Below are positions 7,737 through 61,764 of a stretch of DNA of 64,000 nucleotides, one piece after another. Under the pieces are notes generated by a model. That model did no database searches. It was given only the letters and a program-made list of their open reading frames with translations, and had not been told where the DNA came from. The stretch spans positions 220,991 to 284,990 of the forward strand of contig SUVR01000001.1 of NCBI GenBank assembly GCA_015061915.1. The letters run 5' to 3'. Made by a program: the position numbers and the translations under genes. Source of the stretch: Lentisphaerota bacterium (GTDB lineage Bacteria > Verrucomicrobiota > Lentisphaeria > Victivallales > UBA1829). Within the stretch, counting starts at the first letter, position 1. The number at the start of each line of letters is the position of its first letter.

Positions 7737-8912
7737 ATGGCTGAAACAACACAGAAACGTCCTTTGATCTGGATCATGGCTGGGGAATCCAGCGGCGATC
7801 TTTACGGCGCAAGAATTGCAAAAGAATTGAAAAAACTCAACCCTGATTGCGACATCAAGGGGATGGGCGGCGCAAAGATGAAAGCCGCCGGCGTGGATAT
7901 TCTGGTCGATTCCACGGAACTCGGCGTTGTGGGGATCGTGGAAGTCCTCGGTATTATTTTTACCTTCATCCGCATTATGCTGTTCCTCACGAAAGAAGCC
8001 GCGAAACAGCGCCCGGACGTGGTGCTGATGGTGGATTATCCCGGTTTCAACATCCGTTTTGCCAAACGCTGCTGGAAAATGGGGATCCCCGTGGTGTGGT
8101 ACATCAGCCCGCAGGTGTGGGTCTGGCGCAAGTCCAATATTCCCAAGTACGCAAAATATTGTAAAAAAATGCTGGTGATCTTCCCCTTCGAGACGGAAGT
8201 CTGGGAGGGCACGGGTCTGGAAGCACAGTTTACCGGTCACCCCCTGATCGAAGTGATCCGGGAGCGGAAAGATCCTGCGATCCAACGGGATCCCAACCGG
8301 GTCCTGCTGCTGCCGGGCAGCCGCAAGAGCGAAACGAGCCGTCTGGTGGAACCCTTCCTGGCAGCGGCGAAACTGCTTTCTGCGAAGAATCCCGACCTGA
8401 AATTTATGATCGCTGCACCCCGGGAAAAGACGTACCGGGACATCCAGCGTCAGATGGAACTTTTCAAACAGAAAAACGGAGCGGATGGACTGGAGAAGAT
8501 CGAGATTTCCTGCGGCGAAACTGCCCGCTGGATGCAGGAAGCCTCCACCGGTCTGGCGGCGTCCGGAACGGTGACCGTGGAATCTGCCATTTCCGATCTG
8601 CCGCTGGTGGTGGCGTATAAACTCAATCCGGTCACATTCTTTATGGCTCGCTGGTTCCTGGTGGGCAAGCTCTTCCGGGGCTTCTTTACCATGCCGAATA
8701 TCATTATGGATAAATGCGTGTTCGAGGAATTTCTGCAGGATCAGGTGACGCCTGAAACACTGGCGGATGCCATGAAAAAGATCCTTCCCGGCGGCGAACG
8801 CCGTGACGCCGTTATGGCGGATATGCAGGCAATGCGCGATGCCCTTTCCTGCGGTGCGGAAAACGCCACCGCCAATGCCGCCGCCGCTGTGATGGAAGTC
8901 GCAATGAGATAA
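7737..8912 (+). CDS. lpxB: Lipid-A-disaccharide synthase
   Basis: A 391-residue GT19 glycosyltransferase condensing UDP-2,3-diacylglucosamine with lipid X to make the lipid A disaccharide at the inner membrane. Seen are WIMAGESSGDLYGA at the N-terminus, DSTELGVVGIVEVL, MVDYPGFNIRFAKRCW, VWYISPQVWVWRKSN, FPFETEVW, FTGHPLIEV and LLPGSRKSE. ATG at 7737 is chosen because AGGAG lies 9 nt upstream; a TTG at 7728 would sit on the Shine-Dalgarno. Its TAA stop (8910-8912) overlaps the first heptamer of the repeat array that follows. Confidence 0.96.
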   Translation: MAETTQKRPLIWIMAGESSGDLYGARIAKELKKLNPDCDIKGMGGAKMKAAGVDILVDSTELGVVGIVEVLGIIFTFIRIMLFLTKEAAKQRPDVVLMVDYPGFNIRFAKRCWKMGIPVVWYISPQVWVWRKSNIPKYAKYCKKMLVIFPFETEVWEGTGLEAQFTGHPLIEVIRERKDPAIQRDPNRVLLLPGSRKSETSRLVEPFLAAAKLLSAKNPDLKFMIAAPREKTYRDIQRQMELFKQKNGADGLEKIEISCGETARWMQEASTGLAASGTVTVESAISDLPLVVAYKLNPVTFFMARWFLVGKLFRGFFTMPNIIMDKCVFEEFLQDQVTPETLADAMKKILPGGERRDAVMADMQAMRDALSCGAENATANAAAAVMEVAMR

Positions 8913-8977
8913 TGCGGAATGCGGAATGCGGAATGCGAAATGCGAAATGCGAAATGCGGAATGCGGAATGCGGAATG
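8911..8977 (+). repeat. Left heptamer array of the four-helix-bundle cassette
   Basis: Nine perfect tandem 7-bp units plus a 4-bp partial, starting inside the lpxB stop codon. The order is three AATGCGG, three AATGCGA, three AATGCGG, then AATG. The array stops 9 bp before the Shine-Dalgarno of the next gene. It is roughly inverted relative to the right array at 9353-9485. Confidence 0.97.
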
Positions 8978-8996
8978 AAAAATTCAGGAGGCTGTT

Positions 8997-9347
8997 GTGA
9001 AAAAAGACAATGTTATCTTAAATAAAACAAAGTCCTTTGCTTTACGGATAATCAAACTTTATAGCTATCTGAAAAATGAGCAGAATGAATTTGTTTTGAG
9101 TAAGCAGATATTGCGAAGCGGAACCAGTATCGGAGCAAATGTACGGGAAGGAAACCGGGGACAGACCAAACCGGATTTTTACTCAAAATTGAATATAGCT
9201 CTCAAGGAAGCAGCAGAAACAGAATACTGGCTTGAACTGTTGCACGAAAGCGGTTATCTGACAACAGATCAATTTGAAAGTATTAACAAGGATTGCTCTG
9301 AAATTATTGCGTTACTTGTCGCAATCACCAAAACACAGAAATCATAG
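8997..9347 (+). CDS. Four-helix-bundle protein (23S rRNA intervening-sequence protein family)
   Basis: A 116-residue protein starting at GTG 8997 behind AGGAGG. It carries the family hallmarks QILRSGTSIGANVREGNRG, FYSKLNIALKEAAETEYWL and a C-terminal IIALLVAITKTQK, consistent with the S23/IVP family (TIGR02436, Pfam 23S_rRNA_IVP). These proteins form pentameric four-helix bundles and are related to the Avd accessory protein of diversity-generating retroelements. Family members were first found inside 23S rRNA insertions; their function is unresolved. Here it is not in rRNA but between lpxB and an oxidoreductase gene, flanked by heptamer arrays. Its base composition is much lower in GC than its neighbours. 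No reverse transcriptase or variable repeat is nearby. Confidence 0.93.
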   Translation: MKKDNVILNKTKSFALRIIKLYSYLKNEQNEFVLSKQILRSGTSIGANVREGNRGQTKPDFYSKLNIALKEAAETEYWLELLHESGYLTTDQFESINKDCSEIIALLVAITKTQKS

Positions 9348-9352
9348 TTAAA

Positions 9353-9485
9353 CGCTCTGCGTCATTCCGCCTTCCGCATTCCGCCTTTATGACCGCTCTG
9401 CGTCATTCCGCATTTCGCCTTCCGCCTTCCGCCTTTATGACCGCTCTGCGTCATTCCGCCTTTCGCATTCCGCCTTCCGCATTAC
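9353..9485 (+). repeat. Right two-level repeat array of the four-helix-bundle cassette
   Basis: Three tandem higher-order units: 9353-9393 (41 bp), 9394-9441 (48 bp) and 9442-9485. Each begins CGCTCTGCGTCATTCCGC, continues with 7-bp units of type YTTYCGC (CTTCCGC, ATTCCGC, ATTTCGC, CTTTCGC), and the first two end CTTTATGAC. The 7-bp length difference between copies 1 and 2 is exactly one heptamer. ATTCCGC is the complement of the left-array unit. The array ends in the TAA stop (read on minus) of the FAD oxidoreductase gene. Confidence 0.95.
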
Positions 9486-16190: not shown

Positions 16191-16338
16191 CGGCAGAACG
16201 CGCAGGGCGCGGCGTAAGCCTGTCCCGTCGGAAACCGACGGACAGGCTTGCTTTTTTTGTGCGCAGCGGAAGCTGCTTGCTGCGCACAAAAAAAGCGCAC
16301 AGCGCAGCTGTGCCGCCGCGCCCTGCGCTGTTCTGCCG
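16191..16338. repeat. Multi-arm intergenic inverted-repeat element, copy B
   Basis: The outer stem pairs 16191-16214 with 16314-16338, near perfect with one bulge. Three arms lie inside: AAGCCTGTCC...GGACAGGCTT followed by a T-run (16216-16258), a TTTTTTTGTGCGCAGC hairpin closing with GCTGCGCACAAAAAAA (about 16252-16294), and GCACAGC-GCA-GCTGTGC (about 16297-16313). It lies between convergent genes (oxidoreductase and chagasin-like inhibitor) and includes a plausible rho-independent terminator. A roughly 38-nt stretch (16285-16322) is also found inverted in copy C. Confidence 0.78.
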
Positions 16339-36059: not shown

Positions 36060-36202
36060 CCCGCATACAACGGTCAGGCGCGCGGCGGCACAGCTCCGCT
36101 GTGCGCTTTTTTGTGTGCGGCTTTCTGCCGCCGCACACAAAAAAGCAGGTCTGCCCGGTGATACCGGGCGGACCTGCGCCGCGCGCTGACCGTTGTTGCG
36201 GG
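36060..36202. repeat. Multi-arm intergenic inverted-repeat element, copy C
   Basis: The outer stem pairs 36060-36087 with 36177-36202 with few bulges. The arms are GCACAGC-TCC-GCTGTGC (about 36087-36104), GCTTTTTTGTGTGCGGC closing with GCCGCCGCACACAAAAAAGC (about 36105-36146), and GCAGGTCTGCCCGGT-GAT-ACCGGGCGGACCTGC (about 36145-36177). It fills the gap between convergent permease and phosphoesterase genes. About 37 nt (36079-36115), reverse complemented, match copy B at 16285-16322. Confidence 0.8.
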
Positions 36203-46147: not shown

Positions 46148-46269
46148 CGGACGGGGACGCAGCAGTGCCGCCGGAGGCGGCTCGCTCCCGCAGAGCAGGC
46201 GCACTGCCTGCACTGCGGGGGCTGCGCAGCGAAAAAACATTTTCGCTGCGCCTGCTGCGTCCCCGTCCG
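46148..46269. repeat. Multi-arm intergenic inverted-repeat element, copy D (between divergent genes)
   Basis: A perfect 18-bp outer stem pairs 46148-46165 with 46252-46269. The arms are GCCGCC-GGA-GGCGGC, CCCGCAG..CAGGC / GCCTG..CTGCGGG, and GCGCAGCGAAAA-AACA-TTTTCGCTGCGC. It lies between two outward-facing promoters (46089-46116 minus, 46281-46308 plus), so it is upstream of both genes and is not a conventional terminator for either. Confidence 0.78.
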
Positions 46270-48167: not shown

Positions 48168-48308
48168 GCGCGGGACGCCGCAGACTGCCCGCAGGGCAGG
48201 CAGAAAACAGGACGCAAAAAAGCGGCTGACGGATTTTTCCGTCAGCCGCTTTTCTTTTTTGCGGTCGTTTTCTGCGACCGGATTTCCGGTCCTGCGGCGT
48301 CCGCGCCG
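48168..48308. repeat. Multi-arm intergenic inverted-repeat element, copy E
   Basis: The outer stem pairs 48168-48184 with 48293-48308 with one bulge. The arms are CTGCCC-GCA-GGGCAG, a long GCAAAAAAGCGGCTGACGGA / TCCGTCAGCCGCTTTTCTTTTTTGC hairpin, and GGTCG/CGACC with ACCGG/CCGGT at the 3' side. It lies between convergent genes (YgiQ and the 938-aa secreted protein) and includes a good terminator with U-runs on both strands. Confidence 0.75.
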
Positions 48309-61359: not shown

Positions 61360-61511
61360 GCGCACGGCACAGCCCCGCCCCCGGTACCGCTTTGCGGTCC
61401 CGGGGGCTTCTGCTTTTTCCGGGGCAGGGAGGCAAGGTTCTGCTGCCGTCGGTTTCCGCCCCGGAAAAAGCAGGGCGCGGTGCGTTGCACCGCGCGGGCT
61501 GTGCCGTGCGC
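61360..61511. repeat. Multi-arm intergenic inverted-repeat element, copy F
   Basis: A perfect 16-bp outer stem pairs 61360-61375 with 61496-61511. The arms are GCCCCCGG..ACCGC / GCGGT..CCGGGGGC, a long CTGCTTTTTCCGGGGC / GCCCCGGAAAAAGCAG hairpin with a large internal loop region, and GCGCGGTGC-GTT-GCACCGCGC. It lies between convergent G1P dehydrogenase and rpsU genes and is separate from the rpsU terminator. Confidence 0.78.
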
Positions 61512-61539
61512 GTCATCCCTGCCTTTCTGTTCTGTGCAC

Positions 61540-61576
61540 AAAAAAACACCACCGGATCTCTCCGATGGTGTTTTTG
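61540..61576 (-). terminator. Rho-independent terminator after rpsU
   Basis: On the minus strand ACACCATCGGA (61571-61561) pairs with TCCGGTGGTGT (61556-61546) around GAGA, followed by a run of seven T. Confidence 0.88.
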
Positions 61577-61596: not shown

Positions 61597-61764
61597 TCAG
61601 CCTCTGCGGCGCTGGACGCGACGCTTCTTTTCGCTCGGCTTTTCAAAGTGTCTCCGGTTGCGGAGTTCTTTGAGGGTACCTTCCTTGTCCAGTTTCTTTT
61701 TCAGACGGCGGAGGGCGCGTTCGATGGGTTCACCTTTTTTCAGACGCACTTCTGTTGCTTCCAT
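61597..61764 (-). CDS. rpsU: Small ribosomal subunit protein bS21
   Basis: A 55-residue protein found by reading the minus strand, starting [20 protein letters not shown] and ending in basic [27 protein letters not shown] and the following [19 protein letters not shown] are the bS21 signature. bS21 is a small 30S subunit protein involved in initiation. A strong AAGGGGGG lies about 10 nt before the ATG. It is 59 nt downstream of the sigma factor gene on the same strand, recalling the rpsU-dnaG-rpoD linkage of proteobacteria but in another order and without dnaG. Confidence 0.95.

Follow-up and report, generated by a model that had tools for sequence, protein, structure and literature searches.

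Known bidirectional terminators consist of one hairpin flanked by an A-tract and, on its opposite side, by a T-tract, and those found at tail-to-tail junctions include the paired uptake-signal hairpins of Neisseria (PMC1852404). Hairpin-cluster terminators place several hairpins close together past the stop codon; their frequency falls with hairpin number, and they are described without mention of a closing helix (PMC8355165). The REP, BIME and REPIN families with RAYT are extragenic palindromes of high copy number that are lineage-restricted and show compensatory changes in their hairpins; REPs measure 20–40 bp and have conserved ends (a terminal tetranucleotide or 16-mer) and an associated transposase (PMC3116915, PMC2817692, PMC3733652). 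Stem-loop repeat families, including ERIC, NEMIS and YPAL, have been catalogued in 40 bacterial genomes as intergenic folding repeats with a bias to 3' gene ends (PMC2267715, PMC1590033). At the level of mutation, template switching can create and repair perfect stems in one event and has been reported to leave a clustered compensatory pattern (PMC8794818), and quasipalindrome mutations have been described in E. coli (PMC7202029).

The elements considered here have two hairpins facing each other across a third, all inside a long closing stem. This would be a terminator arrangement of which we know no other occurrence; in the present genome it is found at about half (47/96) of the longer convergent junctions.

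Six three-armed elements of the window

The window, that is, the whole 64,000-nt stretch of DNA analysed (contig C25, 220991–284990, of a 2.49-Mb assembly), had been reported to hold six intergenic elements in which an outer stem closes three hairpin arms. On folding, every one of the six showed a closing stem with exactly three arms at the same coordinates, with minimum free energies of −102 to −122 kcal/mol and z-scores of −10.3 to −14.6; no shuffled sequence (0/200) was as stable as the native one, and our own gene calls likewise placed all six between genes. Elements 2, 3, 5 and 6 lie at convergent junctions, element 1 between two minus-strand genes and element 4 between divergent genes. 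Orientation and arm order are variable, elements 2 and 6 being reversed relative to element 3. The dimensions originally given (an outer stem of 16–28 bp and a total of 122–152 nt) proved too narrow for the genome at large, where stems run from about 12 to more than 30 bp and many copies are longer than 152 nt.

Element 3 (36060–36202; closing stem 36060–36087/36177–36202; z −14.6) separates convergent genes for an AI-2E transporter and a metallophosphoesterase, and sequence together with a rule-based test predicts an intrinsic terminator for each of them. For the plus-strand gene (36088–36112, plus strand), the hairpin of arm 1 (36088–36104) is followed by GC and then by T6 (36107–36112), which belongs to the 5' side of the middle arm. 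For the minus-strand gene (36139–36175, minus strand), the hairpin of arm 3 (36147–36175) is followed by T6, seen as A6 at 36139–36144 on the plus strand. The base of the middle arm (36105–36146) thus consists of two facing U-tracts, and since these are complementary by necessity, the T-tract/A-tract pairing at this position is not in itself structural evidence.

The other three convergent elements have the same plan. Element 2 (16191–16338; closing stem 16191–16214/16314–16338) has arms at 16216–16249, 16250–16296 (T7...A7) and 16297–16313 and is flanked by genes for a GFO/IDH oxidoreductase and a chagasin-type inhibitor. Element 5 (48168–48308), with arms at 48185–48199, 48200–48275 and 48276–48291, lies between a radical SAM gene and a gene of 938 aa. 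Element 6 (61360–61511; arms 61377–61407, 61409–61474 and 61475–61495) is bordered by an Fe-ADH_2 gene and a 55-aa gene (61597–61764) that adjoins a sigma-70 gene. Next to element 6, towards the 55-aa gene, there is also an ordinary A-tract/hairpin/T-tract terminator (61538–61575), so that this junction carries two kinds of terminator. By sigma-70 (RpoD-type) relatives, the nearest named records belong mostly to Lentisphaeria or Victivallales.

Element 1 (871–1022; closing stem 873–895/998–1020) lies about 33 nt from the stop codon of a NifU-like gene (1056–1277). Its arms occupy 897–913, 915–945 (a T-tract paired with an A-tract) and 946–995 (A-tract, hairpin, T-tract), and the covariance model described below matches it at 883–1010 (E 2.6e-6). 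Element 4 (46148–46269) has a closing stem of 46148–46165/46252–46269 and arms at 46167–46181, 46184–46222 and 46224–46251; by the rule-based test, this element of a divergent junction has no hairpin plus T-tract on either strand.

We considered known structured RNAs (Rfam families, tRNA, tmRNA) as candidates and rejected them. The curated covariance models of Rfam gave nothing at gathering scores, element 3 by itself giving sub-threshold matches at most, and a tRNA finder reported no tRNA.

A different repeat array was observed in the window at 8911–9484. There, a degenerate 7-nt repeat (AATGCGG / CCGCATT) forms inverted arrays on either side of a GTG-start ORF (8997–9347, plus strand) for a 23S rRNA-intervening-sequence protein (PF05635, E 1.7e-31). 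Arrays of a similar kind occur at C6:78408, at C25:179822 and on several contigs of the sister species.

Copies across the genome and among relatives

The survey read 2.335 of 2.490 Mb (94% of the genome) in tiles. Genes were called with our own simple dicodon model (1,807 genes, 88.7% coding), and the fold scan took in every intergenic region of 60 nt or more (893 in total). A cut below −0.58 kcal/nt and −55 kcal/mol, which selects size and stability and not arm number, left 71 intergenic domains, and these densest domains contained a three-arm junction in every case (71/71). Seventeen of them had first been scored as two- or four-branched; their printed structures revealed a three-arm element plus a stray flanking helix. 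A slightly looser cut gave 72 elements of 119–206 nt as folded, with median arm lengths of 29, 46 and 28 nt and few or no unpaired bases at the junction. None lies inside a gene, and a separate inverted-repeat scan recovered the same population. At least two further copies stand outside this list (C4:87791, in the unread part, and C25:158088). Copy density is uneven, ranging from 1.4 to 9.1 per 100 kb. A comparison scan of 1.21 Mb from 80 Lentisphaeria and related loci yielded 21 structures, nine with no arms, seven with two, two with three and three with four; the two with three arms are both unlike the present family.

A covariance model of the kind proposed in the preliminary description was built from elements 2 and 3, one contig-8 copy and the sister-species ortholog of element 2, four sequences with two-sided changes in 16 of 48 pairs; two MAFFT alignments that included many elements failed to match the arms correctly and were left out of the results. 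In a scan of 1.88 Mb of the genome's own sequence, the model returned 64 matches at E ≤ 0.01, often on both strands, which correspond to 38 distinct places. All 38 are in the independently found element list, and 35 are not among the model's own sequences; within the window, the model misses element 5. In a paralog alignment, standard pairs filled 95.9% of pair cells, compared with 52.6% after shuffling and 36–49% after sliding, and the covariation score was 0.955 versus 0.193 shuffled, values that lean towards the structure to which the alignment was fitted. The inner 11 positions of the closing stem show 92–100% Watson–Crick pairing in strict register, with a weak motif (counted from the junction, C at position 1 and G at positions 8, 10 and 11). 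We infer that all copies probably descend from one three-armed ancestor that spread to about 75 gene ends. A repeat family that is nearly invisible to sequence clustering is here obvious by shape, and similar families may have been missed elsewhere.

The covariance model found 39 matches in the present genome and 18 in a sister species, the one other genome of the genus that was covered (72% complete). Across nine further genera of the family, represented by 34 genomes, it found no match. A phylum-wide run over 289 genomes, with stricter filters and fewer candidates scored, matched the present genome only. Counts of the stem pattern against a reversed-pattern control were 24 versus 1 in the present genome and 11 versus 2 in the sister species, and about equal in nearly all other genomes. 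The relatives within the family were examined by covariance model, stem pattern and fold scans of selected loci; phage and plasmid collections, each queried with one element, contained no similar DNA. As far as these searches extend, the elements appear to be restricted to one genus.

Flank queries to the sister species gave 25 sites with both flanks on one contig, of which 23 are filled by an element of similar length, most of them folding with three arms. At the ortholog of element 6 (sister contig L124:2281–2454), the closing stem and arm 1 are left and arms 2 and 3 are gone, leaving a single long hairpin. This could be a real deletion or a fault of short-read assembly, the latter because many sister contigs end at elements. 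Contigs C192, C326, C54, C258, C191 and others of the sister species end at or near elements, and the elements probably fragment short-read assemblies of this genus. At the site of element 43 (C21:115080), the corresponding gene pair on sister contig L310 is separated by unrelated sequence of about 370 nt that contains several simple hairpins.

Across 1,423 base pairs of the orthologous elements, two-sided changes preserve pairing 39 times and break it 11 times, whereas shuffling gave a mean of 3.7 pairing-preserving changes (maximum 13 in 2000). Joint substitutions peak at the true register (50, against 15–22 at shifts of 1–6), and divergence reaches 7.8% of sites in stems and 30% in loops. 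The clearest case is element 2, in which the middle arm is rebuilt in the sister species and the outer stem GGGCGCGGCG/CGCCGCGCCC reads GGGCACAGCG/CGCTGTGCCC, a difference of two compensatory pair changes. The preliminary description had claimed that the architecture is retained while the sequence changes, and had looked to compensatory changes and to copies outside the window as its tests; the excess of such changes and the 72 elements found in 2.335 Mb bear this claim out.

Gene context and predicted termination

A bias towards convergent junctions, which the preliminary description had left to be counted, is pronounced: 47 of the 72 elements are convergent, 23 co-directional and 2 divergent (p < 1e-22). 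The enrichment has a Fisher p of 7e-23 when compared with junctions of 60 nt or more and 1e-24 when the comparison is limited to 120 nt or more, with an overall range of 1e-22 to 1e-27, and the 47 convergent copies compare with 96 convergent junctions of at least 120 nt. The median distance from stop codon to element is 13 nt.

We scored a terminator signature by rule, requiring that a T-rich stretch follow an arm or that the arm itself include a T-tract. It is present on both strands in 43 of the 47 convergent copies and in 10 of the 25 non-convergent ones (Fisher p 5e-6), in agreement with the earlier impression that the arms contain predicted terminators. Among the co-directional copies, 13 of 23 have the signature on the sense strand (10 on both strands, none on the antisense strand alone), and neither divergent copy has it (0/2). 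Under a stricter hairpin plus T rule, both-strand terminators occur at 34 of 46 convergent junctions with an element and 31 of 105 without one. Copies with no signature (10/23 co-directional, 2/2 divergent and 3/47 convergent) still have three arms. The features of an intrinsic terminator are therefore found in the convergent majority and not in the whole family, and bidirectional termination at convergent junctions appears to be the best-supported role.

In the arrangement exemplified by element 3, a polymerase arriving from the left would transcribe arm 1 and next the U-tract that is the middle arm's 5' side; one arriving from the right would transcribe arm 3, followed by the U-tract that the opposite side of the middle arm supplies. 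Each transcript would end on the side of the middle arm nearer to its own gene, so that neither would enter the opposing gene. Selection at convergent junctions would act on such arm-plus-T-tract modules. For the full cloverleaf with its closing stem to form, the DNA would have to be single-stranded or extruded, or the RNA a read-through transcript, and the closing stem is unnecessary for termination. Termination cannot account for the shape, given that copies without the signature keep their three arms.

Dispersal and upkeep, and likeness to known systems

From their computed shape, copy number, distribution, orthology, compensatory changes, strand symmetry and clustering, we infer that the elements are probably a genus-specific family of palindromic DNA that acts as bidirectional intrinsic terminators at convergent junctions and is kept up by hairpin templating. 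A more radical proposal is that they form a class defined by shape, a four-way junction with three arms that a genus-specific system recognises or propagates as single-stranded or extruded DNA, termination being secondary; we regard this as possible, albeit unlikely.

Slightly less probable is a non-autonomous mobile element (REPIN- or MITE-like), its hairpin mobilised by a structure-specific nuclease, for which gene ends would be tolerated sites and terminators a side effect. Dispersed copies without common flanks, as in MITEs and transposons, do exist: the whole element is common to paralogs with unrelated flanks (elements 36/62, 9/10 and 46/69), once in inverted orientation, and the family has many copies, is confined to one genus and differs between the species at the site of element 43. 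The pair at C2:243421–243619 and C2:246909–247068, 3.5 kb apart, is 87% identical over 158 nt with unrelated flanks and looks like the most recent copying event in the genome. Against mobility, the 25 testable sites of the sister species include no clean empty one, element ends have neither flanking direct repeats indicative of target-site duplication (3.96 vs 3.90) nor a conserved terminal sequence, and k-mer enrichment in the outer flanks is weak. The sole Y1_Tnp match is to an IS200-like fragment of 77 residues, which accounts for 59 of 121 profile positions, and no reverse transcriptase was found anywhere in the genome. Copying of a structured element, as first suggested, is thus supported in part, by the dispersed and even inverted paralogs, but target-site duplications are absent and 23 of the 25 testable sites hold an element in the sister species too. 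With the Y1 transposase only a fragment, mobility is past at best; dispersal probably happened before the split of the two species, and these searches brought up no agent of it.

How the stems are kept perfect can be approached through strand symmetry. G-U makes up 2.4% of element stem pairs. Co-directional elements have 2.2% G-U in the sense and 2.4% in the antisense orientation, with equal energy on both strands, so that G-U is not tolerated more on the functional strand; the ordinary co-directional terminators of the genome have 10.8% sense and 2.8% antisense, a bias partly built in, because selecting these terminators by their sense fold inflates G-U on that strand. One-sided transitions lead to G-U 25 times and to A-C 31 times, favouring neither. 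Compensatory Watson–Crick changes are clustered, 17 of 36 lying within 3 bp of another (null mean 4.6, maximum 14), and this strand-symmetric, clustered pattern is the one associated with template switching. The comparison covers two species, in which single events are undatable, and at convergent copies, which are transcribed on both strands, the symmetry could reflect selection on two RNAs. Together, symmetry and clustering suggest that pairing is probably kept at the DNA level and not by selection on one RNA. The near-perfect strand-symmetric complementarity favours hairpin-templated copying as the best explanation: as DNA is synthesised, one side of a stem would serve as the template for the other. 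Template switching preserves palindromes but alone does not yield three arms each time. Persistence of long palindromes for want of SbcCD was rejected, as SbcD is present in both species.

The same strand-symmetric Watson–Crick complementarity, together with the scarcity of unpaired junction bases, a G-rich motif at a fixed 8–11 bp from the junction and the retention of elements where the terminator signature is absent, would suit a DNA landmark, that is, a cruciform or junction to which an architectural or structure-specific protein binds, for example to organise the chromosome or to form a barrier where polymerases converge. We consider this quite unlikely, given that a binding protein is without a candidate, that copy density is uneven and that only two copies occupy divergent junctions, where negative supercoiling would favour extrusion. 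A cruciform serving as a sink for negative supercoiling is likewise disfavoured by this avoidance of divergent junctions (2 copies). For the nucleoid or replication landmarks first suggested, the uneven density provides no positive evidence.

Still less likely is a structured RNA, with the cloverleaf acting in read-through or 3'-UTR RNA as an RNase III signal or a block to 3' exonucleases. The extreme RNA stability, the position about 13 nt past stop codons and the compensatory changes would fit such a role, and co-directional copies without T-tracts need some function beyond intrinsic termination. Yet co-directional copies have equal G-U and no energy difference between strands, one-sided changes do not favour G-U over A-C, and a transcript that has terminated cannot form the closing stem; the absence of strand preference in co-directional copies leaves the earlier suggestion of a pure RNA 3'-end cap unsupported. 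The least probable account, that template switching perfects any quasi-palindrome and the elements are functionless, fits the clustered compensatory changes, the strand symmetry and loops that diverge about four times faster than stems, but predicts neither exactly three arms in 71 of 71 dense structures, nor the convergent bias and context-dependent T-tracts, nor the lack of such elements in relatives.

Comparing G-U between sense and antisense strands helps to tell whether palindromes are maintained at the DNA or the RNA level, a test that is transferable to other cases. With about 75 replicates per genome, the family would also be a natural test bed for the origin and upkeep of perfect stems.

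Among described systems, the elements are like bidirectional intrinsic (Rho-independent) terminators in having a hairpin and a T-tract on both strands at convergent gene ends, and differ from the single-hairpin form in their facing hairpins and closing stem. They are also like hairpin-cluster terminators, with the difference that three arms are here fixed inside a stem. With REP, BIME and REPIN sequences they have in common high copy number, compensatory hairpin changes and restriction to a lineage, but they are longer (119–206 nt), have no conserved ends and are accompanied by no intact RAYT that we could find. The catalogued stem-loop families resemble them as intergenic folding repeats biased to 3' gene ends; those families are defined by common sequence (HMMs), whereas the present one is defined mainly by shape, most copies being weakly similar. 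Finally, multi-base compensatory changes and near-perfect stems link the elements to template-switch hairpins (PMC8794818) and E. coli quasipalindromes (PMC7202029), although template switching is a mutational mechanism described in RNA genes and single palindromes, and not an element family.
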